The notes under the pieces: model-generated | What the model saw: only the letters and a program-made list of their open reading frames with translations | What the model was told of the DNA's origin: nothing | Databases searched by the model: none | Part shown: piece after piece, positions 31,576 through 63,378 of the stretch | How the letters are laid out: each line of letters opens with the position of its first letter | Numbering within the stretch: the stretch's first letter is position 1 | Translations under genes and position numbers: made by a program | Source: Aurelia coerulea | Lineage: Eukaryota > Cnidaria > Scyphozoa > Semaeostomeae > Ulmaridae | DNA: 64,000 nt | Assembly (NCBI GenBank): GCA_039566865.1 | Contig: CM076945.1 | Location: 8,855,501-8,919,500, forward strand | Direction: 5' to 3'

Positions 31576-32392
31576 TAAACTTCAGAATTTTGATTAGGTA
31601 GGAGGTTAGAAAACTTGATGTTTGTGACAAATTATGGAATAGGAAGATTTATATTGAAATTTATCTTTGTCCCAAAAACCGGTTGCTTTGGGCACGAAAG
31701 TCGTACTATTTGGTAAAGCGCCGGTTCTTTTTCCAATTCCTCCGGACAAACATGGGGTCAAATATTTTACAGTCTTTACAGTACTTGCCCGCCCCTGCAT
31801 GGCTCACGGGTTACATACAGCGTATGATTGTAGAATTGATAAAATAAGTGTTATATACAGCCTTTGTTTTCTTTCTTTTCGTCGTTCTTCTGTCTGTTGT
31901 GATGTCTTCTCCTGATCTAACCTCCACTAAAAATATTACACATTTTTTTGTAAGAAACTGGTTTATAAGAAACTAGTACTACGATGACCAAAAATTTAAA
32001 AAAAATCTAGTACTACACTCAAGAACAGTTAAGAAACTCTTAAAATTCAATTTCTGTATGTGTCTCTTTTATTCTATGTCTCTCTAACAACGGTACCTTC
32101 ATCTTTTTACTTTTAACTGCAAAAATTGGTAACTTTTTGACTGAGTGTGCATGGCTTATTCGTGATGACAATGTCAATGTAAAATGGAAGCCCTTTGTCG
32201 AGAAGAAGCCTCAAATTTGAACCTTGGGTAGTTAGACACTGCTGGTGTGCTTCTATGGAGGAGCGCTGGATAATATGTATCTGCGGGGGAAATTTTTTGT
32301 AGGACTGCGGAGGAGACATTTTCGTTCTTTTGATATCTTCTCCGTTTGAAGAAGATATTTGATATGAAGGTGAAGAACAAGCACATTTCAAG
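31576..32392. promoter_or_regulatory. GPCR 5' flank
   Basis: The region upstream of the GPCR start codon. No gene was recognised on either strand, and no clear core-promoter motif. A regulatory role is assumed from position only. Confidence 0.25.
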
Positions 32393-33343
32393 ATGGCTGC
32401 ATTTGCTTGCACTTTCAACTTATCTTACAAGGTTGTCGTTTGCAGTTTGCTAGGAGCGACTGCCATACTTTCACCGATCTTGAATTTCTTCGTTTGTTTG
32501 ACAATTTTCAGAAACAGAGGACTAAGAACTGCTGGCAACATTTTGATCGCAAATTTAGCAATCAGTGACATTCTCATTGGCCCAACCCTGGCTCCTTTAG
32601 AAGTTGTTTACATAGCTTATTTTCCTTCTTGGCCAATTCGAAGTGCAGGGACAGATTTGCTTAATTCAATGTGGCTATTTTCATTGGTATCTCCATTCAT
32701 TATTGTATCTGTGATAACTGTAGAGAGATACAAGACGATCAAATCTTTCACACTGGCTGGAAATGGAATGTCAACGAGGACACTTTTGTTACTCATTCTG
32801 GGGATATGGTTTTATAGTGTCACTGCCGTCGGTTTTATGGCGGGGAATTTTGTGCCTGCGAGCGACAATTACTACCAATGGAATATTGATAAGAATTTTT
32901 ACTACCCCTTCCTTGCTTTACACATTGTAATTCCTCTATGTCTTGTCTGTGTTGTTTATTATAAGATTTTTCAGATTTCTAAAACACCACGCGCAAGTAG
33001 CGAACGCTTCGACGATTCCTTCGATGTAACAGTTCATAAACAAAGACGAGAAATCCGACTTGCAAAGACTCTTGGTATTGTCATTGGACTGCTTTTCCTT
33101 CTATGGCTCCCAGTCCTTGTTATAGAGTGTTTTTACGCCACAGAGTCGACATCATGCATTACAGAAGCTGCTGGTCCTGTCAGTGTGTGGCTCACTGCAA
33201 GTAATGGTATAATGAATCCAGTTATTTATTTTTACAGAAATCCAAACTTACGAGGAGCACTGAAGAAAGCTGTGACTTTCAGGAAGGACAGAACGAAGTC
33301 TCAGCTTACAACAACTTTGCTTTATAATAGATTAGAGACATAA
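32393..33343 (+). CDS. Orphan rhodopsin-family (class A) GPCR, single exon
   Basis: A complete 316-aa intronless frame with seven hydrophobic segments in a plasma-membrane receptor. Landmarks: Asn in TM1 (ILNFF), NLAISD in TM2 (Asp59), ERY at 111-113 in place of DRY, Trp139 in TM4, Pro181 and Tyr190 in TM5, WLP (Trp238, Pro240) in TM6 and NPVIY (275-279) in TM7, followed by a basic helix 8. A possible N-glycosylation site (NLS) lies near residue 9. It has no Cys at the top of TM3 or in the second extracellular loop, so the usual disulfide is missing. The ligand cannot be predicted. Intronless GPCRs of this size form large families in anthozoans. AATAAA occurs downstream near 33845. Confidence 0.9.
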   Translation: MAAFACTFNLSYKVVVCSLLGATAILSPILNFFVCLTIFRNRGLRTAGNILIANLAISDILIGPTLAPLEVVYIAYFPSWPIRSAGTDLLNSMWLFSLVSPFIIVSVITVERYKTIKSFTLAGNGMSTRTLLLLILGIWFYSVTAVGFMAGNFVPASDNYYQWNIDKNFYYPFLALHIVIPLCLVCVVYYKIFQISKTPRASSERFDDSFDVTVHKQRREIRLAKTLGIVIGLLFLLWLPVLVIECFYATESTSCITEAAGPVSVWLTASNGIMNPVIYFYRNPNLRGALKKAVTFRKDRTKSQLTTTLLYNRLET

Positions 33344-42345: not shown

Positions 42346-42584
42346 TTAACTATAAATTTGCTGTCTATAATTTCCATTTTCAACCTTTTCTCGTTCAGGG
42401 AGTTCATCAAACTCAAACCTCTCCAGTTCTCTTGACGACTTGAGTACTTCTTCAATCGATTTCCCAAGGAAACCAAGTTCATCTCGTAATTGCAAATACA
42501 CCACACATTTTTCATTTAGGTGCTTTTGTTTTTGTGTGTGCCAGCTCTCTTCTGAATACCCATTTGCTATTGATTCCAGAGGAC
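42346..42584 (-). CDS. Channel gene last exon, cytoplasmic tail
   Basis: Acceptor TATTCCAG; encodes 78 residues and TAA. It is charged and likely helical (LQLRDELGFLGKSIEEVLK, SSRELERFEFDELPEREK), probably a short coiled coil that could aid assembly. This is inference. Confidence 0.8.
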
Positions 42585-45500
42585 CTGGAATAAAGTGAGA
42601 ATTATCATTGGAAGCGTCGAATCTTTGCAAAACTTTGAAATCGTGTAAAAAGTTTTTTATACTTCAAACATATTTTAGCTTAATTGTAAATAAATACAAC
42701 CAGCTAATTGATACCAACTAACGGAGCAACAACAGCTAAAAAATGTATATATACTATGACGTGTTCGTAAACTAAGACGAGAAATACAATATTAATCTAT
42801 GTGATGTATCCCAGGTTTGGTATATATTGGGTGTATAATTTGCAGGAGCATGGAATCGTACAGGGACGTAGGAAGCATCTCAAACTTGAGGGGGCACGAC
42901 ACTTTAAGGGCACTTATTTCATTAAGCTAAAGGGGCACTTCCTGAAAATAGAAAGGGCACTTCTTTGTTTATTGCAAAATCTTGGGGGGGCACGTGCCCC
43001 CAGTGCCCCCCCCGGTTCCTACGTCTCTGGAATCGTAATCTGTTTTGTTAGTCTTTTGAAAATTTCCAAGTTGCTTGCATTTCTTACTTCGACAGGTAAG
43101 TTATTCCAAATTTGACAAGTTTTCGAAATACTTCCACCCTCCCCTGTTATTAATAACGACAGCTCCTTTAGGTAATAATTCACTATAAACACAAAGAGAG
43201 ACAGCATTTTTAAATCATAGCCATTTTCACGTTTACAGAATGACACAATGTCAATTGAAGAAAAGCAACAGGAAAATGTATGAAATACGATCAATATAAA
43301 TCTGATATATAGATATGAAATAATTTTGGAAAACCAGCCTTAAGAAAGTCAGGCGCAATGCGTTTTCCAGGCACAACTAATCTTGTGATGGGTTTTAAAT
43401 TCGCAAATTTAGCTCTTTTCAGGGCTGATAGCTTTCAAAGCATGCTGTAAAAAGCATTGATAATTGCAAGATTGATTTCTTTGGGCATATTAAGCGCTTA
43501 GTCATGGTCACAAGGTCAAGGTCAGAGAGAAACGCTCGAAGGATAATGAAAAATGTCAATATAATGGCTCTTAACCCTGTAATGGTTGGGCTATCTGACA
43601 CGTCCTATTTTGTTGGGGGGGGGGGCAAAAAAGCCCCCTACCTAACTCTTGACTGGAAATAGATAGAGGAACCAAATTTGGTGTATTAATAGCCCCAGGC
43701 ATGTACTTTATGAGAATATAAAAATTAACCTTAAATTAGCCGTCATTATTGCTTGCGTCAGCATTTTTCTTTGTGTGGTCAAGAAAAGTGGCAAAATCGG
43801 TCAAAATCAGGAAAAATGCGATAAAATTTAATTTGTAGCATAATGTCCATCCAAACATAAAAATTGTGATAGATTACATCAAATAGTAATACCCTGCAAA
43901 TTATCTTTGCAAAATATTGCTATTTTGCTACTTTTTTCGAGAAAATTAATATTTGAGAATTGATGATTATTTTGACAGAGTCAGGTCCGGAAAACTATCT
44001 CCCTCCCCTCATTTGTCAAAACATTTTCATAAAACTTTGTGGGTCGTTGCACAATACGTAGCAGCAAAAAGTCAGAAAGTTTTCGGGTCATAATCGTTCT
44101 CCTGGCAGAGTTATAACAAAAAGCCTACTAGGGGGGGGGGGGGGGAATTTGCACTCCCCCCAACCAAAATAGGGTTAAAGTCTTAAGCAAGGTCTTATTC
44201 TGCTTAAAGAGTGTAGCTCAGAACAAAGTTTTTTCATAAGTATAATTTCATACCCTGTAATCAATGAAAGCAAAAATTTCATCCTCTTTAAATATTTTTC
44301 GATCATCGACAAAAGAGATAAAAAAGGAAATTATACGATGGCCTTCATACTCGAATTTTGGTGGTTTTTAGAAAACGGAAATGTTTTCCTCTGGAACAAC
44401 CGGTATGACATGCCATTGCCATGTTGTACAAATAATCATCTTTTCAATAAACAGCGAGGAATGCTCAGACTCCTCAAAAAGATACTTGTCTACAATTTCT
44501 CATGTAATAGGCAAGGAGACATTTTACTTTTTTCTTTTTTTTTTATATATTCAATCTAAAAAATTTACATGACAGATTACTACCTACACTACTTAATCTA
44601 CTTTACAACACTACGACTACGATACCAAGAGGAGCAAAATACTATGTCAACCCCGAGGCCTTAAAAAGAAGAAAAACATTGAAAAAGTACATTTATACAA
44701 ACCAGACAAACAGAGCTACAAGCTAAGGCATCTTGCAACCAAACAATTTCGAGTGAAGATTTGCAAGGTTTAGAACCAAGAAAGGCAATGTAAAATCTAT
44801 TATTTGGTTGCAAGCTTCCTTAAGACACATAATTGCAGAAAGAAAACAAACAAACAAACAAACAAACAAACAAACAGACAAAAACAAAGCAAAAACAAAC
44901 ATTTTACTGAGAGTTAACCTACGATAACTAATGATTTTGAATTCTTACCGCTTTGTTCAGATTGTTCTTTCTTTTGTAAATGCCTTTGTAAAAGAAAGCC
45001 AGATATTATTAGCAACGCCAGGAATGATCCAATCCCAGCAAGAAATATTTGCATTGGTGTCGAACTCCAGTCTATTAACGTCGTTGATTTTTCTGATGCT
45101 TGGTTTCCAAACTTTATCGGCTTTGGAAAGAGAAAGATGATTCAGAAAAGCGAAGCAAATGTTGAACGAAAGACTGAAAGAGCCTACTTATCAAGAGCCT
45201 GCTTACTGAAGGAACGGTGTCAAGTGGTGTCTTTTACCACTAAAAGGAACTTTCTCACCCAAGTTACTCTGCAAATACAAACGCGATTTGGACATGCGAG
45301 GTCGCAAAATCTGGGTTAAGACTACATTTGTGCTATTGACAGAAAAAGAACATTTTTGAAACCAAGGCTCCTTCACAGAAACTTTTCAAAAGCTCATACT
45401 CTTTTTTGAGACACCCGGTATAATCTTGGAATAACTCAAGATATCAAAAATGCTCACATTAGAATTATGATAAAGTGTACAAAGTTATTTTCAAATAATC

Positions 45501-48500
45501 AAATAACAAATGATTGAAAAACAAATCACACAATTGCTTTTCAAAGATTTGACGCCTTTGCTACAGTAAATCTGTATACACACCTTGAAAGGGACAACTG
45601 ATGACGATATTTCTGTGAATAACTTTTGTTTATTCATATCTGTGTACGTTCTAAAGCATTTTTCCATCAATGTGCCTTCATTTCGTAATAGCATTCCATA
45701 CGAAAATACATATTCGATAATTTGGACCAATAGGAACTTTTCGAATAATGATTGATAATGTCCTGCCACGAAACTATCAATCAATAATCCTTGCGTATCG
45801 CCATTCGATAACACAGTTGAGAGATCTTGCACCGTTGGATAATCTATGGATTAGACAAAATAAATTTAAAGCAAATACTTTGACCCACAAACGAACTATA
45901 TAATTCTACAGTCTCAAATTTTAAATGGTTCAACGTCTGATCAACTAAACTCTAACCTTGCAAGCAAGACAGACATTGAACACATGATCACTGCATAGAA
46001 AGAACTTGTTGACCGGCTCTCGTATTGACGGATTCAATGTTGCTAATTAATCCGAAGAACAATATCCTATACTCTTACTTGGTCAGCAAAATTAGACTTA
46101 TGACCAAGAGTCTCTTGTTTCCCTCTGCTCTTTGACTTCATGATGGCGCTTCGGTCAACAGAGACTCATATCATTACTCTGAAAAACCTGACCCCATTTA
46201 GGCCCAAACTCTGAGCTTCCCAGAGTACCAATCAGATCGCAAGATTTGTGGATTACTATGGTGACGGCAAATATGATGGAACTTTCTATTCGTTCGAACA
46301 ACTGATAACATTCGGACAAGATTCGAGACTAGAGGCCGTGATTCGAGATTCGAAGCCGTGATTACATCATCATTCGACTGATGAATGCATACTACAGGGC
46401 CAGCTTTTTCACTGTTTCATTATGAGTCCCTGTTGAGCAAGGTTTACCGCAGGGATACAAGGAACTCATCGTCATCAGTCTAGAACAAAATTTGGGTACA
46501 GTTGCAAATAGCATCATATCAGAAGCAACCATTTTTTTTATCAAAGTCTCGGCAAGGTTCAATTAATGTTGAATATAAACAGCAGCACCCTCTAGTTATT
46601 TCTTTGTGCTTGAAAATGGTGTTTTATGATGGAACGTAGCTTTTTGTATATCTTTAAAAATTTACAATACATGTTACGGATTGCTCTACCTACAAACTAC
46701 TTAACAATACTACAAGGACTATACCACGAGGAGCAACAGACTATGACTACCTCATGGCGTTAAATAAAAAATAAGAGTTAAACTATATACAAGTTCTACA
46801 AAAATGCTACACACAATTTAAACAAAATAAACAAAAAACAAAAAAGAAGAGGAACGATAAATATTGTACTGGAAAATGTCCAACATTAGATGTCAGGTTG
46901 GGGCTGTATCAACTCAAAACGAATGTCGCAAGCAAAACTCTTGTGTGTGTTGTTTTATCTACCTCTTAAAAATTGAGACAGAATTTCAAAACATACTGAA
47001 ACGCTACTTTAAGAGACTTGGTGGTTGCATGGCATGTGACTAAAATTTGAATTGATATAAGTCAGATCGATCAGTTTTGTGGATGAAGCGTAAAGTCAAC
47101 TCGAGTATATTCGAGTTCAAGTCATCAGAAAGGTCTTGATCACAATATAATAATAGCTGCGTAAGAGCATCGTTTGAAAGATTGGTGATTTGGACAAATG
47201 GCCGTAATAATGTAAGTTAGTTGGAATGTCAGTGGGGTCCATGGTGAGGACTCGGTGACCTCGTGTCCTTCCTCGCCATGCGTGTTACAGTGTAATGTAA
47301 TTGTAGACTGTAGTTTCAGCTACATGTTTTACTTTTTCATTGATAAGTACAAAATTGCATATAAAAGAAGTTAAAATGCTGGAACAATTTGAATACAGAA
47401 TTAATGGAATACCTATTGCAATTGCATTCTTCTTGGTTGCTATACTCGACTCCTTGCTGTAAGCCATGACAGCTACCTGCAAGTAATGAATGTCAAAGTT
47501 AATTTTATTGCTGTTAGAAACGATTTAGAAACGTCCTTTCAGGTTTTAAGATTAATTCGTTTTCTCTTGCAGGATTTAACAGTTTTTTCTCTTGCTACAG
47601 GTTTATTCTGGTTGTTTTTATTTTACAGGAGCTAAAAGCTAATTTCCAGTCAGTGGAATTTTCCGAGCGGGCGGAATTTTAGACAATAAAAGGTCGCTCA
47701 GCTGTAACTTTCTATTCAACGCCAGAGCGACATTTTCTCTAGAATACAATAGAAATTGCGCCCGCTCGGAAAATCCCACTGACTGGAAATCAGCCTTAAC
47801 AGTCTTCTTTCTACATATTTCGGTGTTTTGTTGCGTTTATGGCTTTAATATGATGAGTCCGTTATTTAAGACTATTTTCAAATTGTGTACCACGAATCAT
47901 TTATTTAAACGTATGAATCATATAGTGCATCTCCTGGTTTTTGTCATATTGTCAAATCTCGAGGGGGGGGGGGGGGGCTTTAGCTACCAAATATACCGGG
48001 CCGGGATGTGCCCTTTTCAGGCAGAAAATAAATTTTGGGGTGTCACTTTTGGTAACGTCACAAATAAACATAAATTTCGGGTGTCATTTTAGAAGAATAA
48101 CTATTTTGGGTATTAAATCGATCTAATTTCATATATTTGGTTAGAATTTTGAATTTTTGTTCAATTTTAAGGTATATATTTTGAATGGCCCGTAAATTTT
48201 GGTGTATGGTTTTTGGAAAATTCATAAATTTCATGGTATGATTTCACAAGTCAAATGGCAGGCCTCCGTCATCTGCCTATTGAAGCTACCCCCGTGGGCC
48301 AAATTGAACTGAGTTCCAGTTTTTGTTAGATTCTGTAGTAAGCAATGTGCATGTACCGGCTGAGTAAAAACACTTAAAACGTTTGGCGGGCTGTGGAATA
48401 AAAAGTATGTGGCCAAGATTCAAAAATAAAACGTTAATCTATTGGTCAAAGGCCAATTTAGAACATAGACTTAGAAGTGAGAATGTTTGCTTTGGACTCA

Positions 48501-51500
48501 GCAAACTTGAGTTGAATTAAAAAGTATTTAGGCCGATACATCTTGAAAGAAAGAAATGCTTACCCTGGTACCAGTAAGAGGAATATCACTTGAAAGACAC
48601 GCAGTTATAAGACCCGTTGTAATAGAAGCAGTAAACATTGAAAGTATCACAGTCCCAAATAGAATCCATATCATAGCAACAAATCGACCAATGACTGTCT
48701 TTGGATAATAATCACCATACCTAATGAGGAGAAATTTTATGGTAATAATCAGCAGGATTTAAAGGTGGCCTGAAGCGAAATTTTTATTGATAAAATGAAT
48801 AGCACTGTCCAATGATAAGAAATTTTGTTTAATTTTGTTTATATCTCATTTCGGTTCCAAGTTATCCATTGATTTCAAGTATCAACTGATTACGCAATTT
48901 GTTTGCTAATTACCAGAATGATAAATGGAAATATAGCTGTATCTTATCTTTTAAAGTGAAAGGTTACAGAAGGCAGAAGCATCACGAAACTTTGGCCATG
49001 ACTTCAGGCCTGTTTGAAGGTTTCTTGAAGTGGCTTTCTTGAGAAACCCATCATAATTTCAGAACGGAGTGGCCGAATTCAGACAGGTAAATTTTGAAAT
49101 ATATTTTAAAGTGTCTAATATTTGCCAGTATTAAAGTGAATGACCTGAGATATATAGCGCTCGTCTATAAATAGGACAAAGAAACACCTGATACCTCCAT
49201 TGTTTTCTTTAGCTTTGCTTTCTTCCGCCACTCGCTGGATTATCAAATACAATAGGCTATTTATAAACCTGTGAGATCTCATCTTTTAACTAAGGTTATT
49301 CGCTTTAACGCTTTGATGTTCAATGAGCAGTGACCTTTAAAACCGGATTATTATTTTTCTTTTACTCACAGAGATGAACAACAAATTAGTTTGTTGGTAT
49401 ATCTCGGCCAGGTAGGATACGCCAGCCAACGCAAAACGACCAAAATGATCTCTGATGAAGTAAGAGAGAAAACCTTGCTCACCCAACTGTTGTTAGAGTG
49501 ACCATGGCCCAATAGAACCCTTGCCAAGCACCCTCCAAACATCTTATCATCTTTGCCGCCATTGCATATATGCAACCGTCACCAGTGTCTTGCGTCTCTT
49601 GGTGCTCAGGACTGCGTATAATTTCCTAAAATCAATAAAAACAAATATATTTGAGATGAATGAAAACAAACATGTTTGAGAGTAGTAGTTGCTGAAACCT
49701 TGGAAAATTTAAAAAGGGAAATTGCAGAATGGGATGGCAAAGGATGTGAATTTTAAATTTCTAAATAATCTTTTTATATATACACAATAAAATATACAAT
49801 TTAACAAAGACAGCTACAAAAGACGATGCAATTGGGAGTAGGATAGGCATAGCTACCCTAAATGATCTTAACAAATAACAATACAGATACTAAAGGCTAT
49901 ACCAAAGTTTCTGTTGCTCTCTCCTACGGTCTCTCCTAAATAATTTTATTATGTTGTAAATAGTTAGTTTTTAGTTTTTATAAACTATGTATTTCAGCAA
50001 CTGTATATAATCTTATGATTGGTTGACTGATTAATTGATTGATTGATCGATCGATTAGAAATAGTCTTTCTGAAATGATGGCAAATTACACAAAGTTCCC
50101 TGAGAGCAATTGGACACATTTAATTTCAAAGTTTTGCAAAGATTCGATGCCTTACTCACAAGCTATAATGCCTCTTTCCAGACTTAAAGAAGGTTAAAAA
50201 AATCTTCTTCTAAGTATACTTACCGAGAGCCAGAATCCTGCTCCAAAAACAAGAGCCAAAACCAGGACAACGACAAGAACAGGCCATGAAGTTGCAAAAG
50301 CATTAATCAATGCATCTTGTGCCGAACCCGAACTCCCGTAGAAAAATGCAATGCCAGGGGATTCAACTAAAAGAGAAAATTTCCAGTTGTAAAGTAATGA
50401 CCATCGCTTATACAAGGAGCCCGGGGAGGAAATGCTAGGGGGCAAATACTGTCAGAGTGCCGACAGTGAGATTTTTTTATGAACGAGTTCAATTCTAGTT
50501 CACTGAGATGACAACCTAGCAAAGAAAGCTGGAGGTGCAGGTTATGAAAATGCCGACAGTGCGTAGAAATTGTCGAAAATTTAAGTGCCGATGGGGGGGC
50601 TGAATGATATTTTGGGGGGCTCCTGCCCCCTCCTAGCCCCCCTCTCGCGTTATCTCTGCGCTTATACAAGGAGCCCGGGGGAGTAATTGGTCTGACGACA
50701 CACTGGAAGGTGTGCTGCTGGAAATTCTGAAAAAGTACCCTGTCCTCGAGTTTTATTTATATTCCCAAAAATGATACCCTGTCCCCAGTGAAAGTTTCAA
50801 AGTCAATACTTTATCCTTGAGGATGACTTAAACTGGTACATTATTCAAATCATGAAAAAGGATACCTAAAACCGAGGGACTTGTAAAAAACCCACAACCA
50901 GTACTGGGGTTCACACATAGCCGCCCTCGATTGTAGGCACCTGCACTCCCACACTAAATTACCTTCGGTTCGGATCACGGGGGGGGGGGGGGGTTCTTGG
51001 CTAAATTTGGGGTAAGGATCTGCCGCGAGCATATACAAAATGGTACCGTTGGCTAGGCCAATTTTTACGAAAATAGTACCCTTGCCTAGACCAATTTGAC
51101 CATTCCCTGGACCAATTTTTACGAAAATGGCACCCTTAGCTAGACCAATTTTGACAATTTTCTGGACCAATATTGTCAAATTTGTACCAAATATGATATC
51201 ATAACTGTTCGCTAGACCAATATTGCCAAAAATGATACCCTTGGCTAGACGGTTCCTAGGCCAACATTGCAAAAAATATACCCTTGGCTAGAGTACTCGA
51301 AAAAGTATACCTTTCGTCGCGGCACATCCCCAGGTACCTTTGGTAGGTAGAAATGGTAGAAACAAAAAGATCCCAATGTAAAGCTATCGAAACATCAATC
51401 ACAGCTAAGGAAGAGAAATGATCATGGATGAATGAACAAAGGCACACTCACCTATTGAAATAAACGGTTCACCAAGCCTATCTCTCTTCTTTCCATCTCC

Positions 51501-51746
51501 ATAAACCGGCAGAAATATATCATCAGTTCCATTTCTAAGAACTTCGTGGAACTCCTTGAATCCTGGAGTTTGTATTGAATAATTCAAAGCAGTTCTATCC
51601 TGACAGCAAAATGACACCATGTTTTTTAAAATCTTCTGGAACACTCCTTTGATCTCTCCTGCACTGGAGTTGTAAATATATGGTGGAATTTCTACCCATG
51701 AGATGGACAGTGCATCCGGACATCGCATACGTTTGATCTCAAGCAA
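42346..51746 (-). CDS. Ionotropic glutamate receptor-like channel with potassium-channel selectivity filter (8 exons, 5' end missing)
   Basis: Eight minus-strand exons join in frame to 490 residues: 51746-51452, 50366-50224, 49625-49483, 48720-48564, 47476-47413, 45843-45584, 45120-44949, 42584-42346. The order is that of a minimal iGluR: S1 half of the ligand-binding domain (residues ~10-118), M1 (~126-146), pore loop with TTVGYGD (191-197), M2 equivalent to iGluR M3 with SMFTASITTGL (~227-237), S2 half (~245-360), M3 (~377-398), then an acidic cytoplasmic tail. S2 has LLIDSFVAGHY, matching the Asp-Ser site that contacts ligand in iGluRs. There is no amino-terminal receptor domain. Family precedents are bacterial GluR0 and rotifer AvGluR1, both potassium-selective. 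Gating by an amino acid or other small molecule and K+ permeation are inference. Exon 1 (signal peptide) was not found. Confidence 0.85.
42861..43029. mobile_element. 169-bp hAT-like MITE, complete copy
   Basis: The ends CAGGGACGTAGGAAGC and CAGAGACGTAGGAACCGG (right, read inward) match. The 8-bp duplication GAATCGTA is exact (42853-42860, 43030-43037). It lies in the last intron of the channel gene and is the reference copy for 1-68 and 18215-18353. Confidence 0.88.
43572..44176. repeat. Inverted-repeat element with G-runs in channel-gene intron
   Basis: CCTATTTTGTTGGGGGG near 43601 and CCCTATTTTGGTTGGGGG (right, read inward from 44171) form arms. The interior is non-coding and AT-rich with long G runs. 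Boundaries are approximate and no duplication was confirmed. Confidence 0.5.
44520..44800 (-). mobile_element. 5'-truncated antisense LINE 3' end in intron
   Basis: On the minus strand, GCTCCTCTTGGTATCGTAG, CGTAGTGTTGTAAAGTAG and a terminal ATATAAAAAAAA parallel the 3' UTR of the LINE at 18990-19116. A (CAAA)n run follows at 44848-44876. It lies in the intron between the last two exons of the channel gene. Confidence 0.55.
44949..45120 (-). CDS. Channel gene exon encoding the third membrane helix
   Basis: Acceptor TTTCCAAAG and donor GTAAGAA. It encodes the end of S2, then LIDWSSTPMQIFLAGIGSFL with ALLIISGFLL, a clear membrane span, and a basic cytoplasmic start (QRHLQKKEQ), giving the inside-out topology expected of an iGluR M4. 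Confidence 0.83.
45584..45843 (-). CDS. Channel gene exon encoding most of S2
   Basis: Acceptor ATCCATAG and donor GTGTGT. It encodes YPTVQDLSTVLSNGDTQG, then LLIDSFVAGHYQSL and FSYGMLLRNEGTLMEKCF. This is the lobe-2 order of iGluR and bacterial type-3 solute-binding folds, including the ligand-side Asp-Ser pair. Confidence 0.83.
46640..46830 (-). mobile_element. Second antisense LINE 3' end in channel-gene intron
   Basis: GCTCCTCGTGGTATAGTCC and TGTAGTATTGTTAAGTAG on the minus strand match the block at 44520-44800 and the LINE 3' UTR. It is diverged and truncated. A third, weaker match lies near 49770-49920. Confidence 0.45.
47413..47476 (-). CDS. Channel gene 64-bp exon, start of S2
   Basis: Acceptor ACTTGCAG and donor GTATTCC. 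It encodes VAVMAYSKESSIATKKNAIAI, the first strand of S2 (compare the common L-x-G-x-x-VAV pattern with the preceding PLTGTR). The phases on both sides fit the neighbouring exons. Confidence 0.8.
47636..47796. mobile_element. 161-bp TAA-flanked MITE (Harbinger-like)
   Basis: The ends AAGCTAATTTCCAGTCAGTG and AGGCTGATTTCCAGTCAGTG (right, read inward) stay alignable through TTTTCCGAGCGGGCG. TAA borders both ends, the PIF/Harbinger type of duplication. It lies in a channel-gene intron. Confidence 0.7.
47940..48300. repeat. G-run repeat fragment in intron
   Basis: Starts in a long G run with GGCTTTAGCTACCAAATA and ends near GAAGCTACCCCCGTGGGCC. It looks like a decayed dispersed repeat; no arms or duplication are clear. 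Confidence 0.35.
48564..48720 (-). CDS. Channel gene exon: filter end and inner helix
   Basis: Acceptor CATTAG and donor GTAAGC. It completes the filter Gly and encodes YGDYYPKTVIGRFVAMIWIL followed by FGTVILSMFTASITTGLITA. This combines a K+-channel YGD-x-x-P start with an iGluR-like helix ending that resembles SYTANLAAFL. Confidence 0.87.
49483..49625 (-). CDS. Channel gene exon: pore helix and first half of the filter
   Basis: Acceptor GATTTTAG and donor GTGAGC. It encodes EGAWQGFYWAMVTLTTV and two bases of the next Gly. The intron therefore splits the TVGYG codons (phase 2), and no single open frame shows the whole filter. Confidence 0.87.
50224..50366 (-). CDS. Channel gene exon: end of S1 and first membrane helix
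   Basis: Acceptor TTCTTTTAG and donor GTAAGT. It encodes ESPGIAFFYGSSGSAQDALI, then SWPVLVVVLVLALVFGAGFW, a strong membrane helix placed where iGluRs have M1. Confidence 0.85.
50403..50682. repeat. 22-bp direct repeats flanking a C/G-rich repeat in channel-gene intron
   Basis: CGCTTATACAAGGAGCCCGG with GG following occurs near 50405 and again near 50659. Between them lies sequence with GTGCCGACAGTG-type blocks and CCCCTCTCGCGTTATC. This may be an insertion with part of its own end repeated, or a local duplication. Confidence 0.5.
51030..51300. repeat. Degenerate tandem repeat, GCTAGACCAATNTTG unit
   Basis: GGCTAGGCCAATTTTTACGA, CCTAGACCAATTTGACCA, GCTAGACCAATTTTGACA and GCTAGACCAATATTGCCA recur at about 30-60-bp spacing with (G/A)TACCCTTG between. 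It lies in an intron; the minus frame over it is a repeat artefact. Confidence 0.65.
51452..51746 (-). CDS. Channel gene exon encoding most of S1
   Basis: Acceptor TTTTACACAG and donor GTGAGT. It encodes SISWVEIPPYIYNSSAGEIK with GVFQKIL, the usual start of an iGluR ligand-binding lobe, and later KKRDRLGEPFISIG. Two N-glycosylation sequons (NSS, NGT) fit an extracellular location. The codon frame begins at the first base, so the missing upstream exon should end in phase 0. Confidence 0.85.
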
Positions 51747-52204
51747 CTGTGTAAAAGAGAATGATTCTGGTTAGGCGTACGTAGAGGGAAAAGCGTGAAA
51801 TAAAAATGAGTGAAAATTGTGCTAAGCACTAGACCTTTAGGTATATTCTACAAAAGAAAAGAGTGCGAAGTAAAGTGTGAAGTGTAAAGAGTATGAGGAA
51901 AACTTCATTGAGCCCTGGCCATACGAGGAAACATTGTTTACCAAAATTTGATATTTGCTTGACAAGCAATGCTTCCCCATTTGTCCATGTTGCAAAACGC
52001 TACTCGATTGGGATGATTTTGAAAATGTTCAAAAACACTTTCTGCTTCTCACAAGCAGAAAACATTTGCCAATCATTATTTTGCGGCATAACCAATCGGA
52101 GAAAATTTGTAAAAATATTTTGCCCATTGACTATACAACGCAAAACGAATCTTCAAATGCATAAAATTTTTCCTTTGCGCATCCGGCATCGCATAAAGTA
52201 TTTG
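51747..52204. other. Upstream of the first identified channel exon
   Basis: This should be intron or 5' region. No signal-peptide exon was recognised. The plus-strand 171-codon frame at 51893-52408 runs into the MITE and has no motif. Confidence 0.35.
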
Positions 52205-52522
52205 AAGGGGCTCCGTCGTCAAACAGTAAACAAATCTGTAAACTCGCACGTGTCGCCGATTATCCATTGTTCATCCATTGTTCTCTGCAGTTTGTTTGGT
52301 GGCTTCACCAAAGCCACCAAAAAGCGACCGTTGAAAATCCACTTATATCTGAGCAATCGTAGAAGATATGAATGTTTGGTTTGTCCCTTAGTAAAGTACA
52401 AGGATTAATGACCAAACAGCAACTTTCATTTTGAAAAATATACGAAAATCTTGTGTGATATCATCTTTCAAAAAACTGCAAAAATCATCGTTTTGTTTAC
52501 ATTTTGACGTCGGAGCCCCTTT
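52205..52522. mobile_element. ~0.32-kb MITE, TTAA-type family
   Basis: The ends AAGGGGCTCCGTCGTCAAAC and AAGGGGCTCCGACGTCAAAA (right, read inward) match, and TTAA overlaps the right boundary. A half copy with the same end (TTAAAGGGACTCCGTCGC) lies at 53222-53345. Confidence 0.65.
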
Positions 52523-53221
52523 AATGACAACAGTGTAGAAATATTGGCATAAAATCGAAATAAACATAAATTGCAGAGCATAAACCAGAACCTCGTCGAT
52601 CATTTAACTTCATGTGATGTGTCTTTTCACAAGGAAAAGTGCTCCAATTTTTTCAGATTCCTCTTGATAAACCTTCCCCTGAAGAACCTCTTTTGCGATC
52701 CTCGCTCGGCTCTTATTTGCTGAAACTATTTATCTTTCATTTGGATCCTAAATAATATTACAGAAGCTAAAACATTTTTATTGAATTAATCAGTGGATCC
52801 ATTAATTCATTTGTCTGTTCATTATCTATTATTTATCCATTTTTATTCATTCATAATTTATTTACTTTTTATTTATCTATTTATTATTATTTGGATCTTT
52901 CGTAATCTCTATTATTTTCCTGTTTTGGTATTCTAATTGGTCAGCTGAATGTCAAATCCCACTGATGTCAAACTATGCTCACTACAACAACCATAGTTTT
53001 GCTCCCTTGCTTATAGTCATATGATTATGAAGCAAAATAATGAAGTAATGTAAATAGCAATAAATGATTTATATTTGGTTGCTGAAGATCAATAGCAATG
53101 AACTAAATGAAGCCAACTGTGAACAATTTTTTAAATATGAATAAATAATACTATGAGAGGTCCACTGACTTACAGACCTACAAAGGTTGGAATTTTCTAT
53201 AAAACAAGAAAAAATTGTCAC
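52523..53221. other. AT-rich spacer, no gene seen
   Basis: Includes an ATTTATTTA-type low-complexity stretch near 52840-52900. No supported gene. Confidence 0.35.
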
Positions 53222-53345
53222 TTAAAGGGACTCCGTCGCTAAAATGTAAACAAAACGATGAATTTTGCAGTTTTTTGAAAGGTGATATCACACAGGATTT
53301 TCATATTTTTTCAAAATGAAAAGTGCTGTTTGTAGCTTCACAGCA
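53222..53345. repeat. Half copy of the 52205-52522 MITE
   Basis: Starting AAAGGGACTCCGTCGCTAAA, it matches the reverse complement of the right half of 52205-52522 for about 120 bp (GATATCACACAGGATTTTC). The second end was not found. Confidence 0.55.
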
Positions 53346-53699
53346 GAAACCAACTACAGAGGGAACGAACGAATCCAGCAGGAACCCAGCAGACACAAAA
53401 GCAAAACACAATGCTGGCATTCACTAACTCAATGATTCAATGATTGTTCGCTAAAATTAACAGAAACGAAAATAAGTTAAATAAATCAAACTACTGTGAA
53501 TAATCTATCAGCAAAAAATAATCTAAATCCTAAACAGAATTCATATCAAAACAAATGCAAGAGATAAGGCCTACGAATCTTACACGTGAAAGGCACAAAG
53601 AACAACTTCAAAAAACCTAAGAAAATGCAAGATAAATAATTACAGAATAAACTCTAGATAAACGAATAAAGTAAACAGATAAATACAATTAATAAATGA

Positions 53700-54056
53700 A
53701 ACTTACTCTATCTATTTGTCCTCGTAGCTATAAGGCTGTTGTAGTATGTATGTATGTGTGTGTGGCCTACGGGCCTAACAAAGCTTTGATAACTCGGCCA
53801 TGAGCAGCTTCTCTTCGTCTTCTTCTTTGACTTGCAGCTCTGATGATCTGATCTGAATTGTGCTGCCCCAAGATGCATGCCTAACGCTCTTATAGCTACG
53901 AGTCCCAAGGGTACACAAAACACACAAAGTTACTCAAAAAGGTCAAAGTTCAAAAGTCAAATTGTCATATCGTTCTTCAGAGTCCAAAGTCCAAATTCTA
54001 ACAACAACAACAACAACAACAACAGAAACACTTAACAAACATAAACATATTCAACA
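53700..54056 (-). mobile_element. Probable 3' LTR of the BEL element (left limit uncertain)
   Basis: Just downstream of the minus-strand pol end is a purine tract (TTTGGGGGCGGG), followed on the minus strand by TATGTTGAATATG, a plausible LTR start with its TG near 54056. The far limit cannot be fixed because the 5' LTR lies outside the window. An (AAC)n run lies at 54000-54024. Confidence 0.45.
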
Positions 54057-54106
54057 TACCCGCCCCCAAACAGGCGATTTATAGGAGACTGTTTTTTAAT
54101 AACTTT

Positions 54107-57100
54107 CTATGTTGAATCTTCTTCCACAGTTGCTTCCAACAAACATAACTTTGTTACGGGTCTTCGATATTCAGAATTCATCGTCTTCACCTTTGCTGAC
54201 CGGACAAGGCCATCTCTACCTGGGTACACTTCTACCACTCTCCCCAAAGGCCACTGATTCCTGTGTTGCGTTTGTTCGTTAACGAGTACCAAGTCATTCT
54301 CCTTTAGGTTACGCTCGATTGAATGCCACTTCTGCCTGATTTGAAGAGTTGGGAGGTACTCTTTGGTCCACCTTTTCCAGAATATGTCAGCCATATATTG
54401 AACCTGCTTCCATCTTCTCTTGCTGTACGAATCTTTGCTCTTGAAAACACCAGGTGGGAAACTTTGGCCAGATCTGAGAAAAAACAGATGATTTGGTGTT
54501 ATTGCATTCAAATCTTGAGGATCGTCTGACACCTTGGTGAGCGGTCTTGCGTTGAGAATTGCTTCAACTTCACACAGAAGGGTTTGCAAACCTTCATCAT
54601 CAATCGTCTGATTTCTCAAAATTGCATTCAGAACTCGTCTTACAGATCTTATCGCACGCTCCCATGCGCCACCCATATGTGAAGCTGTCGGAGGGTTGAA
54701 TATCCATTTGATGTCTCTTTGCAAAAGAAATTCATGCACTTGATCCTGATTCCATTGCTGTATTGCAGTTCGGAGTTCTCTTTCGCCACTTCTAAAATTT
54801 GAGCCACTGTCGCATCTTATTTCATCTGGATTTCCACGTCTTGAAATGAATCTTCTTAGGGCATTTATAAAAGAATCTGTATCCATACTGTGAAGAATCT
54901 CCAGATGAATTGCTCTAATTGTTAGACAAGTAAATATGATGCCATACCTCTTTACAATACATCTTCCTCTCTTGACAAAGAAGGGACCAAAACAGTTGAT
55001 TCCAACGAAGGAAAATGGTGGTTTGTCTGCTGTCACTCTATCATCGGGCAAATCTGCCATTTTTTGCTTTCCAGGCTTTCCACATCGACGCTTGCAATCG
55101 AAACAACTTCTGATAATTCGGCGAACTGACGGCCTTGCCTGTAAGATCCAAAACCTTTCTCGAATGCGTGCCAGAACGTACTCCTGTCCAAAATGTGCAG
55201 ATCGTTTGTGAAAATATCGAATTATGAGGTCACTTACATGATGCTGCTTGGGAAGAATAATCTGATGCTTTTCTTCAAGACTGTTGTATGGAGCGTTGTT
55301 GAGTCGGCCACCAACACTAATCACGCCGTTTATGATGACTGGATCTAATCTGCATAGAGAGCTTGATTTTCTAATTGATTTCTGAGGTGATTGTAGTAGT
55401 TTCAACTCTTCACCAAAGCATTCGTTTTGTACACATTTCACAATTGCACGTTCGGCTTCATGCATCTCTTCTGTTGTCAATCTGCCACTCTTGACTTCTT
55501 GCTCCTCGTTGCTACTTCGGATGTTTCTTAGCAACCAACTTCTATATCTCAACAACCAAGCAACAGATTTCTTTAGAACGGTCCAATCTGAGAACTTTGA
55601 AAATATTTGATTCGTCATAACATTTGATGAGTTGATTTGTACTGAATGTGTTTGCACAATCTTCTTGACTTCGACATCATCTTCGGACAAATCTTCAATG
55701 AATACACCTTTGGGCCATTCATGCTCCTCTTTCCGTAGAAATTCTGGGCCATGTAACCATCTATCACTGTTTATCAAGCTGTCTGCACTAAGTCCCCTAG
55801 ATGCATCATCTGCTGCATTTGAACTTGTATCAACATATCGCCATTGAGATGGACTGGATCCGTCGTGTATCACTGCGATTCTGTTCCCAACATATGTATG
55901 ATATCTCCTGCTTTTATTCCTTATGTAACGTAGTACAGCAGTGCTATCTGTCCAAAAGACTGACTCACCAAGTTTCATGTCCAATTCTCTCTTCAGCACG
56001 GAATCCAACTTCACAGCAAGAGTCGCAGCAGCAAGCTCCAGTCTTGGGATTGTCACTCGTTTAAGGGGGGTTAGTCTCGACTTTGCAAGAACGAATGAGC
56101 ATGACACGTCGCCATTGTTGTTGACTGATCGTAGGTAGGTTACAGCACCATATCCCATTTCGGATGCGTCGCTAAAATGATGCAGCTGGCTTGTTACTGC
56201 ACTGCCAATTCCTGTTTCCGTATAGCATCTTTTGACTTCAATTTGCTCCAATTTTGTAAGATCATCCAACCAGTTTTCCCATTCCTTGAGATTTAGACCA
56301 CTTACTTGCTCATCCCATCCTATGTTGTCCTTGCACAATCGCTGGAGGATAATCTTGGCTTTCAGAATGTATGGTGAAATGAATCCAAGCGGATCATAAA
56401 CAGATGAAATTGTACTCAAAATTCCTCTTCTGGTTGATGGTTTATCTTTCACACTGATATTGAAGGTGAATCTGTCAGTTTCCACATCCCATTGCAATCC
56501 AAGAGCTCTTTCAGTCGGGAGTTTATCGTCTTCAAGATCAACATTCTTCAGCTCCTTTGACCTTTCCTCGTCTGGTATTGCATCTAAAACATATCGAGAA
56601 TTGCTTACCCATTTGGTCAGATGGAAGCCGCCTCGAGCCAACAAATCAGCGAGTTGTTTCTGCATTTTGATTGCTTCGTCTGCATCCTTCACAGCTTTCA
56701 GAAGATCGTCCACATAGAAGTTTCGTCGCACGGCATGAATCACTTCATCGTCAAACAAACTGGCATTATCTTCTGCAACTCTTCGCAAGGCAAATGTTGC
56801 ACAGCTCGGAGACCATATACCTCCAAATAGGTGCACCATCATCTGATATTCAACAGGAGCCAGTGTTAAATCACCATCTTCAGCAGTCACACGCACCTGG
56901 TGGAACATTGCTTCAACATCTGCCATTAGGGCTATGGGCTCGCTTCTGAATCGGCATAATACACCAATGAGCAAATTTGTCAAGTCAGGGCCTTGAAGAA
57001 CCTTTTCATTGAGGGAGACATTCTTGTACTTTGCAGCACAGTCAAACACAATCCTGACCTTGTCTGGCTTCTTCGGGTGTGTCACGCTATGATGTGGCAG

Positions 57101-57223
57101 GTACCATAATTTGCCATTCTCCATTTCAATTTCTTCTTCTGGAACCTGTCTTGCGTAGCCTTTTTCTAGCAAGTCGTCCATGAATGTGATTGTTTTAAGT
57201 TTGAATCCTTTTGCAGCCGGCAT
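54107..57223 (-). pseudogene. BEL pol: reverse transcriptase, RNase H, integrase
   Basis: A 1038-codon frame. The RT carries [20 protein letters not shown] and the catalytic FYVDD. RNase H follows ([15 protein letters not shown]), then the integrase zinc site (HKRSAHFGQ and CFDCKRRCG), core motifs RCDSGSNF and GGAWERAIR, and a C-terminal domain. In the integrase core, relatives have an Asp before the FGPF motif. Here it reads GINCFGPF, so that catalytic Asp is Asn. The N-terminal part of the frame continues from the protease frame only after a frameshift near 57200. Confidence 0.85.
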
Positions 57224-57996
57224 TTCAAGTATTCAAGCCTTTTCTGTGCCATGTGTCGGTTGTTCGGTAAATCAGGTGGGCTGAACTTCCACGGAATTGA
57301 AACGTGATAATGACCTTGTTGTAGCTGTATGGAATCTTGAAACACAGCAAGTGCTCTACCGTCTTCTACTGACATCGTTTTCTGGCTATCAACACTTGAG
57401 TCTTCAAATTCGTGGTTGAAGTACTTCTTCAATTGATCATAGAGTTGGTCATCAGATGAAACAGGATTAGAAAAGAAGCAATGATTACCTTGATTGAAGG
57501 AAACACCAATGGGGCCATTAAGGGTCCAGCCAAACATTGTCTTTACAGCATATGGACCACCATTTTCACTTTTTCGCACCTCTTCCGGTTGCAAGGCCTT
57601 CGGTACATCCACGCCGATCAACAGACTGACTTCACCGTCATGGATTGTGTCTGGTAGCATGATTCCATCCAAATGTGGCCATCTTCTCACATCCTCTTGA
57701 CGGGCCAAAGCTGATGTTGAGATGTTCATCGTTTTTGTAGAAAACACATTAGGCATTTGAAGATGCATCGTCTCTTCTAGGTCCATTACTTCTAAGCTGA
57801 CTACTGACGTCTGGCAATTTGTGTTAACACCACTAATTGTAGCAACTGACATTTGACATTTTCTTCCAATCACACCCAGTTTGTCCAGGAGGGCTTTACT
57901 ACAAAAAGAGGCAGTAGATCCACTGTCGAGAAGAGCGTAAGTTTTAAATACCTTGTCACTTCCTGTCCCTTTCACCTTCAGGGGCACAATTGGCAA
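57166..57996 (-). pseudogene. BEL protease region
   Basis: A retroviral-type aspartic protease with catalytic LLDSGSTASF near residue 27, followed by the linker to RT (GWTLNGPIG is the usual BEL word). Gag upstream and pol downstream are in other frames, with short overlaps, consistent with two small indels rather than programmed shifting, though the latter cannot be excluded. Confidence 0.8.
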
Positions 57997-58031
57997 TCCA
58001 TTGTTGACTCCTCCTCGATCGTCACATCTAG

Positions 58032-58722
58032 TTACTCCAACAAACTTTCATTGTGCTGAGTCGAATCAGTTTGCATTTGCTTCCTCCACTCTTCCTTGCG
58101 TCTCTTCTCATGGGCCACCACAGAGTTATGTATTGCTGTGAGGTGTTTGCGACGGAGATCACAATTGGCAACTGTACAAGCCTTCCTTTGATTGCATCCA
58201 GGGGAGAAATGAAAAGAAGATAGACAATTGTCGCAGAGCTTCTTTGAACGAATGAAATTAAACTTTTCCTCACCAGTTTTCTTCTTGAATTCTTCGCAGT
58301 TTGTCAACTTGTGATTCTTTTCGCAGAAGTAACATTTCACGCCTGTTGAAGTGAGATTTGACTTCCCATCATTGGTCTGGATACTGAAATTCAAGTTTCG
58401 CTGCGTACTCACTGCATTTGGCCTTCTGATCCTGTCATTTCGTGACGACTGTTCTCTGTTGACATTGTCCATGATAGCGCCAAACACAGGGTCGTTCTTC
58501 TCTTTGGATATCATCCTGATTAAACGCCGCACGTCTTCGACAGTGGGTTCCCTTTGGCGTGATCTGATTTCCTGCACGCGAGACTGCCAACGAGACTTCA
58601 CAAAGTTTGGGCATCGCTCTAAGATCTTCACCAGTCGGTCTTCGTTGTTCAGTTGTGTCATTCTGCCAGCAGCCTTCAACGTCATCTCACAATTCTCGAG
58701 GTCATCGGCCAATTCTTGCAAG
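58032..58722 (-). pseudogene. BEL gag C-terminal part with zinc knuckles
   Basis: After the Gypsy insertion point the frame reads LQELADDLENCEMTLKAAGR, a normal BEL Gag segment. It then has a Cys/His cluster (CYFCEKNHKLTNCEEF, CDNCLSSFHFSPGC, CTVANCDLRRKH) for RNA binding. It ends at a stop just before the protease frame. The codons from 58723 to 58760 come from the Gypsy duplication and LTR, not gag. Confidence 0.82.
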
Positions 58723-58727
58723 CCTTC

Positions 58728-58887
58728 TGTATCAAGTGGTCCAAACAGTAATAAACTCAAGATTCGAGTAGATTAAACTGATCAACTTCAGCTCATCATC
58801 AAAGCTCAAAACGACAACCAAGGCAGGGCAAAGTCCAGCCTAACCTAACTACCCATTACGAGGCTAATTAAAGATGGTATCATAACA
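58728..58887 (-). repeat. Gypsy 3' LTR (160 bp)
   Basis: Identical over all 160 bases to 63219-63378. It begins TGTATC and ends TAACA on the plus strand. A purine tract (ATGGGGA, minus strand) borders its inner end. At 160 bp it is very short for Gypsy. Confidence 0.95.
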
Positions 58888-58914
58888 TCCCCATATCATT
58901 AAAGTAGATAAAAA

Positions 58915-59145
58915 GAATATGGATTGACTCAAACGCCCTCTAATGTTCTGTAGGGCACAAAACACCCTCTAATGTTCTGTAGGGTATAACAGAAATAAAA
59001 ATAAAATAAAGGCCCTCTAATGTTCTGTAGGGACACAACACCCTCTAATGTTCTGTAGGGTAAAACGCAAAACCCCCTCTAATGTTCTGTAGGGTATAAC
59101 GTGAATAAAATAAAATAAAGGCCCTCTAATGTTCTGTAGGGCTAC
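58915..59145 (-). repeat. Six copies of a 20-bp repeat at the Gypsy 3' end
   Basis: CCCTCTAATGTTCTGTAGGG occurs six times (near 58934, 58966, 59012, 59041, 59073 and 59121), separated by A-rich spacers. CCCT/AGGG ends make each a short potential stem. The last copy overlaps the end of the Gag-Pol frame and supplies its stop codon. Confidence 0.9.
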
Positions 59146-62100
59146 CATATCGTTGAGGTGGTTTAACAGTTCTTTGTGATCGTCTGAGCACTACACTTTC
59201 CTCAGGTGGCTCCTTCTGCTCAATTTCTTCTTTTCTTTCTTTGGGTATGATCTCTATTTCTTTTTCCTGTACCCTTTCATTTGGTACATTCTCGACTCTA
59301 GGAGGTATTTCAGACGTTCTCTTTAGATCAACTCGGTTTCTCCTGTATGTATTAGTGTCTGTTTCAACATCATAAGATCTCTCGTCAAGTCTCCTCAGCA
59401 CAACACCTTTCTGCCATGATTTGTCCCCTATCTTGTAGGGTCTCATTCTTACTACATCTCCCTCAACTAAAGATGGCAAGTCCTTGCTCTTCTTATTGTA
59501 ATACATACCCTGCCTTTCTTGATTACGTTTCAATTGTAGTTTAACAAGTTCTTTGTCATTTTGCTTCAAAAGAGAACCCGACGTTGGAATAAGTGTTTTT
59601 GTCCTTCTCCCCAACATTCTTTGAGCAGGGCTTCTATCTATTCCTTGGGAAGGTGTATTTCTGTGGTAGAGAATTGCTAAATAAGGATCCTGCTTAGATT
59701 CCTGTGCCTTCCTAAGTAATCTTTTTGCTGTCTTTACAGCAGACTCTACTTTTCCATTGGCATTGCTGTGATGGGGAGAACAAGGAATATGATCAAATCC
59801 CCATGTTTTTGCAAACTCTGTAAATTCATGAGACACAAACTCATTATCACTGATAATTTGATCAGGGCATCCATATCTTGCAAAATGTGCCTTTAATTTC
59901 TTGATGATTCCTGGTGGCTTTTTACTTGTTAGCTTATCCACCTCCCAAAAGTTGCTGTAGTAATCCACAGTGATGAGGTATTCTATCGTGTTTAGGCTAA
60001 AGAGATCAATTCCGATCTTCTCCCATGATCTGTCTGGTAAATCATGACTCATAAGACTTTCTCTTGTATTCTTCTTGGCTTGGTATGTTTGGCAAACTTC
60101 ACACATTGATATGAATTGTCGTATCTCAGAGGACATACCCGGCCAAAATATGAGATCTCGAGCAAGACGTAGGCAACCTTCTATTCCTAAGTGAGACTGG
60201 TGGATGGATCTTTTCATTTCTGATCTGAGGGAAATTGGTATTACTAATCTTTCACCCCTGAAGATAACACCATTTTGAACAGTCAGTTCATCTCTGTAAC
60301 TACTGTAGGGAACCACTTTTGGGACAATTTGCGTGTTATCATCTGGCCATCCTCTAAGAATGACTGACTTTAAACAAGAAAGTACCTCATCTTGCTCAGT
60401 AGCCTTCCTAATTTGCTCGAGGCGCTCTTCTGTGACTGGCAAATACTGGGCCATGTTCACAGTTTCAAACTCTGAATTTGGTTTTTCATTGGGCTTCAGT
60501 GGTAGACAAGCTCTGCTCAGGGTATCAGATATTGCTTGCTGCTTTCCTTGGCGATATATAATCTCTGCATCATACCCAAGGGTTCTCATCAACATGCTCT
60601 GAAGACGCTTTGGTGCTTTAAATAAAGGTTTCTTAAAAATACTCTGTAGAGGCTTGTGATCACTATATACAGTAACATGCCTGCCATATGTGAAATGGTG
60701 CCATTTCTCAAGGGAGAACACCACAGCTAACATTTCCTTTTCAATAGGGGCATACCTAGTTTCGGCATCTGTGAGAGTGCGACTAGTGTATGCAATAGGT
60801 TGACCATTCTGCAAAAGAGCTGCTCCTAGGCCACTATTGCTGGCATCACATTCAATGGATAACTCTACCTTTGGATCGTAATAGGCTAATACAGGTGCCT
60901 TTGTTAACAACTGCTTGACTTGCTCGAATGCTTTGTCATGAGTAGCATTCCAGTCCCAAGCCGCACCCTCTTTTAACAATGCTCGAATTGGAGCCATCGT
61001 TTCTGAAAGCTTTGGTAAAAATCGAGCTAAGTAATTTACCGTGGCTTGTAAACGAGCTACACCTTTCTTATCTTCTGGTTTCTGCATTTTCAGCAAAGCG
61101 TCCACCTTAGATGTATCTGCCTTGAGACCTTGATCTGTGATTGTATGGCCTAAAAATTGAATTTCTTTCAACCCAAATCTAGACTTATCCTTGTTAAGCT
61201 TTATTCCAACTTTCATACAACGTTCTAGTAACGCCTTTAGCTTTGCTTCATGGTCGATGGTAGCTTCTTCAATAGTATCACCAACACCATAAACAAGGAT
61301 ATCATCTGCAACTGCAGAAACACCATTTAGGCCCTCTAATGCTTGACATAATCTCTTCTGGAAAATCTCACTGCTAACTGATAGGCCAAATGGCAATCTT
61401 GTAGCTCTATAACGCCCAAAAGGGGTCTGGAAAGTTGTCAGTATACTAGACTCATTGTCCAATTGACAATGCCAATACCCACTTGTAAGATCAACTTTAG
61501 AGAACACTTTAGCATTTGCTAGCTCTGGAAGAACATCATCGATAACAGGTAGTGTGTATCTCTCACGCTTTAGGGCTTGATTTAACGGCCTTGGGTCAAT
61601 GCAAAGACGAATCTTACCATTTTTCTTCTCTTGTATTGCTATTTGACTAACCCAATCCGTTGGTTCGTCAACAGGGATTAAAACTCCAAGCTTCACTAAC
61701 CTGTCTAACTCAGATTGAACCTTGCCTTGCAATGCAATTGGAATCCGACGTGCTGGAGATACAACTGGTTTCACTGTTGGATCTACTGTGAGATGTACTG
61801 TGCCTGGGAGTGTCCCTAGATCACCCTCAAACACATCCTTATACTGACTGACAATATTTGAAACTGTTGTCAACTTGTGTACAGACTTCATATTGTGATA
61901 ATTCACAACCATGAGATTCATCTGCTCTGACGCTCTCTTTCCTAACAATGGCATGAGATCTTCTTCAACAACTATGAATTCAACAGAGTATTTCTTCTGA
62001 TTCACAGGATTCCTCAGCTTTACTCTACATTTTCCAAGTGCTGTAATGACAGAATGATTCCACATTTTCAGCTTGACTGTTGTTGGTAAAATTTCACCAT

Positions 62101-63154: not shown

Positions 63155-63218
63155 TACTGATACACTGCTTCATTTACATCCATAAGACATCAGAAAAGCC
63201 TTTTGGCCCCTGTCACCA

Positions 63219-63378
63219 TGTATCAAGTGGTCCAAACAGTAATAAACTCAAGATTCGAGTAGATTAAACTGATCAACTTCAGCTCATCATCAAAGCTCAA
63301 AACGACAACCAAGGCAGGGCAAAGTCCAGCCTAACCTAACTACCCATTACGAGGCTAATTAAAGATGGTATCATAACA
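63219..63378 (-). repeat. Gypsy 5' LTR (160 bp)
   Basis: Identical to 58728-58887. On the minus strand it starts TGTTATG and ends GATACA, followed directly by the primer-site-like TGGTGACAGG. Confidence 0.95.

Follow-up and report, generated by a model that had tools for sequence, protein, structure and literature searches.

A predicted potassium channel subunit of glutamate receptor architecture in the jellyfish Aurelia coerulea and its cnidarian family

The glutamate-binding Group 1 channels of bacteria pair the two halves of a ligand-binding clamshell, S1 and S2, with a K+ filter, and an excerpt of a 2010 paper (PMC2950845) states that, to its authors' knowledge, such channels were then confined to bacteria. 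GluR0-type channels are described, in the excerpts of PMC12332018 and PMC6385376, as having two membrane helices and no M4. PMC12332018 and PMC12226733 name an animal receptor that has a K+ filter, the rotifer protein AvGluR1 (Adineta vaga); the former passage assigns it the architecture of eukaryotic ionotropic glutamate receptors (iGluRs) together with a K+ filter, and the latter likens its phylogeny, structure and K+ selectivity to those of bacterial iGluRs and reports responses to amino acids. Here we describe a gene in a 64,000-nucleotide stretch of the Aurelia coerulea genome (contig CM076945.1, positions 8,855,501 to 8,919,500), referred to throughout as the window. We consider it virtually certain that this locus contains an intact animal gene with GluR architecture and, leaving the class of ligand aside, fairly probable that its product is, as a whole, a ligand-gated K+ channel subunit of that architecture.

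The gene comprises eight minus-strand exons (window positions 51746 to 42346, a spread of 9.4 kb) that splice into a single frame of 490 codons, with a joined length of 1473 bases (Table 1). All seven introns were GT-AG, and the phases after exons 1 to 7 (1, 0, 2, 0, 1, 0 and 1) were in complete agreement. The frame used contained the terminal stop only, versus 24 and 29 stops in the two alternative frames. The eight exons with agreeing phases that a first-pass annotation of the letters had proposed were thus upheld in coordinates, splice sites and open frame, as was its remark that an intron divides the filter codons: in ACA ACA GTT GG/G TAT GGT GAT, the first glycine codon is cut by intron 3 in phase 2. 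The closest relative was Rhopilema esculentum LOC135693392 (P0001), with 54% identity over 96% of the length (E 4.3e-165). When the window was searched by tblastn with the first 16 relatives, each of the eight exons drew matches, in the frame used, from two or more of them; matches to exons 5, 7 and 8 came from only P0001 and P0002, the two closest. As the first exon of the model opens at an acceptor site, at least one coding exon is missing at its 5' end.

Analysis of the product identified, in the order previously proposed, S1, membrane helix M1, a TTVGYGD pore, an iGluR-like inner helix, S2 and a third membrane helix (M4), with hydrophobic stretches at residues ~116–151, 201–237 and 374–402. 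The LIDS site noted earlier in S2 was also confirmed, as Asp290. A canonical K+ filter confers K+ selectivity, and based on this motif the channel is very likely K+ selective; that it is ligand gated, as its homology suggests, we regard as likely. All three N-glycosylation sequons of the product lie in S1, and five relatives (P0004, P0005, P0007, P0008 and P0037) have starts that by eye resemble signal peptides. Based on these two observations, S1 and S2 would be extracellular, with the pore loop entering from the cytoplasm as in iGluRs. A cysteine at product residue 9, ahead of S1, was present in 17 of the 17 sequences with a letter at that position, and a CC pair in S1 (residues 47 and 48) in 16/18 and 18/18, respectively; these cysteines possibly form family-specific disulfides.

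Judged by its sequence, the window gene is not a singleton and belongs to a cnidarian family. We assigned to this family the first 16 of 36 hits of a protein search, which have S1, pore and S2 in common, plus P0037 (Hydractinia) and P0135, giving at least 19 members (18 proteins and the window gene). The seven relatives that carry species names are all cnidarian and derive from six species: Rhopilema (two), Dendronephthya, Paramuricea, Nematostella, Pocillopora and Hydractinia. Six of these seven are labeled "uncharacterized protein" by NCBI and one is labeled a voltage-gated K+ channel. The expectation that gene finders could miss such a gene therefore failed, as relatives are present in the NCBI records of all six. 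Among the remaining relatives, five are from EukProt (with gene numbers in one style) and six lie on contigs of 1.7–2.3 kb, which are probably spliced transcripts since the window gene takes 9.4 kb. No paper on a cnidarian member was found among the open-licence literature matches listed, in agreement with the earlier statement that none was known to have been characterized.

The TTVGYGD filter was invariant (19/19). This motif was used to cut the sequences, and no family hit was discarded for want of it. A search for further members, run with the filter masked, gave eight proteins, including one new one, and all eight had the filter. It missed 10 of the 17 known relatives because it scores only the 7,996 candidates richest in shared words, so that the count of 19 is a lower bound and the family may or may not extend beyond cnidarians. 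Tree reconstruction with the 19 members and seven prokaryote-type channels with solute-binding protein (SBP) domains placed the 19 on one side of a branch with support of 100/100, and the window gene was sister to P0001 (99/95), with warnings for long branches (P0026 and P0012) and odd composition (P0042 and P0039). Two further SBP channels, P0047 and P0058, lacked the filter used for cutting and were excluded both from the tree and from the stricter pore-free comparison below. The "bacterial" status of the SBP rows is based on domain make-up and length, P0047 alone bearing a bacterial name.

Several members carry additional domains. CUB and Ig domains precede the channel in the anthozoans Dendronephthya, Paramuricea and Nematostella (P0009–P0011), and FN3 in Pocillopora (P0015). 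The EukProt gene model P0002 joins a MAS20/TOM20 import receptor (E 7.5e-42) to the channel, and is perhaps a prediction chimera that skips the channel's first exon.

To compare the clamshell apart from the pore, family profiles without the filter and inner helix (M1 was left in the S1 piece) were scored against 117 hits, nine of them SBP channels. The top five S1 scores and the top four S2 scores all belonged to SBP channels, and in the stricter comparison, with seven of the nine SBP rows kept, homology of the clamshell to amino-acid-binding proteins held. Among PDB chains, the closest clamshell by sequence in a pore-free search was that of glutamate-binding GluR0; eukaryotic iGluRs and AvGluR1 gave no match at E values up to 10 in that search, which does not exclude kinship. 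GluR0 was also the top fold match to the clamshell in a structure model of P0001. As the 26-row alignment behind this model included nine prokaryote-type SBP channels, and so carried a risk of circularity, a second model was made from 18 family rows alone; its clamshell strands and helices, and its top match, were unchanged. AvGluR1 was not among the best 50 fold matches listed for either model, an absence that excludes nothing, and a whole-chain Foldseek search of the P0001 model was headed by animal iGluRs. A plain K+ channel (two-transmembrane, voltage-gated or K2P) with unrelated flanks was rejected, based on the homology of S1 and S2 to GluR0 in the pore-free comparisons. The absence of ligand-binding homology, which the first-pass annotation had named, together with a tree placing the gene among plain K+ channels, as grounds for abandoning its proposal, was not what was found.

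The residues that line the predicted binding cleft were less consistent with a glutamate receptor. Arg485 and an acidic residue at position 705 hold the amino acid backbone in iGluRs (PMC6307864, in excerpt). At the column aligned to this S1 arginine, none of the 19 family members had arginine and one (P0014) had lysine, versus arginine in all seven prokaryote-type rows. The GluR0 alignment shifts the register two residues later, and at that column eight of the 19 were acidic and four had lysine. The S2 aspartate, Asp290, was retained in 19/19 and a second acid, Glu255, in 18/19. As the carboxylate-binding arginine is gone and both acids are retained, the ligand would more likely be an amine or another cation without an alpha-carboxylate than glutamate. 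We therefore lean toward a ligand outside the standard alpha-amino acids, although this is the weakest step of our reading. The earlier description of the protein as glutamate-receptor-like stands for its architecture, its clamshell homology with the pore removed and its GluR0 fold, and falls short at the missing S1 arginine, which leaves a glutamate ligand doubtful. From the residues present, "GluR0/iGluR-like K+ channel" is a supported label and "glutamate receptor" is not.

A number of results weigh against our reading of the product as a ligand-gated K+ channel subunit of GluR architecture, its class of ligand included. The hidden Markov model searches proposed earlier gave a clear match to the pore domain only (Ion_trans_2, E 1e-14): the Lig_chan score of the product was 27.5 bits, under the cut-off of 30.8, and SBP_bac_3 matched neither the product nor any of the 10 family members scanned, and only one of 13 clamshell pieces (E 0.053). 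A whole-protein sequence search of PDB gave only K+ channels among the matches listed, and one swapped control in the pore-free comparison attained an E value of 0.013. No convincing 5' exon encoding a signal peptide was detected in the 12,254 minus-strand bases upstream of the model (51747–64000); strict settings gave no candidates and loose settings four, three of which were inside retrotransposon frames. Finally, the register at the arginine could be off by some two residues, and Lys86, Lys87 and Arg88 of the window protein lie near the site, where one of them could act as a stand-in.

This last point bears on the best-surviving alternative, which we consider rather unlikely: an amino-acid-gated K+ channel, as GluR0 or AvGluR1, in which the carboxylate is held by one of these three basic residues, by backbone or by a bound anion. 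The identity of the sequence-closest clamshell, that of a glutamate-binding protein, is consistent with this, as are the invariant S2 aspartate, the basic residues so close to the arginine site, and the title of a paper on AvGluR1, which attributes the mediation of ligand binding there to anions. However, across residues 84–93 no column was basic in more than seven of the 19 members. We consider it less likely still that ligand binding by the clamshell has been lost, leaving a K+ channel subunit that is constitutive, adhesion-linked or auxiliary and whose S1–S2 and added CUB, Ig or FN3 domains act in assembly or in contact between cells. Loss of the arginine and the added domains of P0009–P0011 and P0015 would fit such a subunit, but the near or complete invariance of the two acidic cleft residues points to a retained pocket, and no CUB, Ig or FN3 additions occur in the portion of the window gene's orthologue group that was covered. 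That the gene is a pseudogene, or its exons a chance match, is very improbable despite the 5' exon not found and the retrotransposon frames directly upstream, given eight stop-free exons in one open frame, seven matching phases, the extensive match to the Rhopilema protein and tblastn matches across all exons, on which grounds artefactual exons were rejected.

As in GluR0 (Synechocystis Slr1257 and its Nostoc homologue) and the bacterial Group 1 channels, the order is S1, M1, K+ filter, inner helix and S2, with the S2 aspartate; unlike these, the window protein has M4 (374–402) and a long tail, is encoded by a spliced animal gene, lacks the carboxylate-binding arginine and has extra cysteines conserved in the family (CC in S1). 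With AvGluR1, as that receptor is described, it shares the combination of iGluR architecture and K+ filter; its pocket, unlike that of the amino-acid-responsive rotifer receptor, may not take amino acids. Animal iGluRs (AMPA, kainate, NMDA, delta and epsilon) have the same order through M4; in contrast to them, the window protein keeps the K+ filter and has no Arg485 equivalent, and its relatives have no visible amino-terminal receptor domain, some having CUB plus Ig or FN3 in its place. Rhopilema LOC135693392, Hydractinia LOC130641614 and Nematostella LOC5501882 form one family with it along S1, pore and S2, with an identical filter; these uncharacterized proteins are paralogues, the anthozoan ones with CUB plus Ig or FN3 in front.

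The inner-helix gate may be one reason for which the family has escaped notice. An iGluR survey dropped sequences with fewer than four residues of the SYTANLAAF motif (PMC6307864, in excerpt). The gate motif of the window protein, MFTASITTG, has two of the nine residues in register by eye and three at the best offset, so that this rule would drop it, and 17 of the 19 family members had fewer than four even at their best offset. For Nematostella, PMC9989356 names Kir, K2P, SK and BK channels beside voltage-gated K+ channels and nowhere uses the word glutamate.

Table 1. Positions in the window of the exons and key sites of the predicted channel gene.
Feature	Window position	Strand	Content	Evidence or conservation
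Exon 1	51452..51746	-	Most of S1, first half of ligand-binding clamshell; model begins at acceptor site	Splice sites, frame, tblastn
Exon 2	50224..50366	-	Last part of S1, membrane helix M1	Splice sites, frame, tblastn; helix in models of relative P0001
Exon 3	49483..49625	-	M1-pore linker, pore helix, filter start T-T-V-G (last codon split)	Splice sites, frame, tblastn
Exon 4	48564..48720	-	Filter remainder Y-G-D and iGluR-like inner helix	Splice sites, frame, tblastn; Ion_trans_2 E 1e-14
Exon 5	47413..47476	-	Start of S2, Glu255	Splice sites, frame, tblastn
Exon 6	45584..45843	-	S2, LIDS aspartate Asp290	Splice sites, frame, tblastn
Exon 7	44949..45120	-	Last part of S2 region, third membrane helix M4	Splice sites, frame, tblastn; helix 379-417 in P0001 model
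Exon 8	42346..42584	-	Helical cytoplasmic tail, stop codon	Splice sites, frame, tblastn
K+ filter TTVGYGD, residues 191-197	48711..49493 (codons 49493-49483 + 48720-48711)	-	Split by intron 3	
Residues 84-93 of S1	51468..51497	-	Site of GluR0-type carboxylate-binding arginine	No Arg at aligned site, no conserved basic column
Asp290	45776..45778	-	S2 acidic site (iGluR position 705)	19/19
Glu255	47450..47452	-	Start of first S2 helix	18/19

Directly upstream of exon 1, minus-strand frames of a Pao-type retrotransposon occupy 54110–58772, with Pfam matches to Peptidase_A17 (54110–57232, E 7.6e-50) and an aspartyl protease (57169–58047, E 2.1e-4); the frame at 58035–58772 in this stretch had no Pfam match. 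A second retrotransposon frame, of long terminal repeat type (59129–63169, minus), encodes reverse transcriptase, RNase H and integrase. Both stretches may lie between exon 1 and the missing 5' exon. Elsewhere in the window we identified a single-frame class A G protein-coupled receptor (32363–33340, plus; 7tm_1, E 3.6e-35) and a reverse transcriptase fragment (14518–15840, plus; RVT_1, E 7.7e-11). The end of a frame at 13090–13956 (minus) may resemble an N-terminal acetyltransferase; Pfam gave no match. A frame at the window end (63339–63998, minus) contains proline-rich repeats of similar units and was likewise without a Pfam match. Rfam and tRNA scans of the 64-kb window found nothing.

Based on these analyses, we propose that the gene product would be one subunit of a presumably tetrameric plasma membrane channel, in which four TTVGYGD loops would meet. 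The extracellular clamshell would sit atop an inverted K+ channel pore, with the third membrane helix anchoring S2 as in animal iGluRs. A small extracellular ligand would shut the clamshell and pull the inner-helix gate open, and K+ would exit, so that the cell would be hyperpolarized and thereby quieted rather than excited; we infer both the tetramer and the inhibition.

It is possible, if somewhat short of probable, that cnidarians kept, or gained early, a receptor class of GluR0 grade that iGluR surveys passed over: an enlarged group of ligand-gated K+ channels that inhibit, have the architecture of iGluRs and respond to a non-amino-acid ligand (e.g., an amine), and whose front was rebuilt in anthozoans from CUB plus Ig or FN3 domains. 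If this speculation is correct, these channels would represent a principle of fast inhibitory reception independent of both chloride and G proteins. The cnidarian family, with its filter intact and M4 already present, would offer living intermediates, and is a candidate for a means by which early nervous systems achieved inhibition directly through K+.
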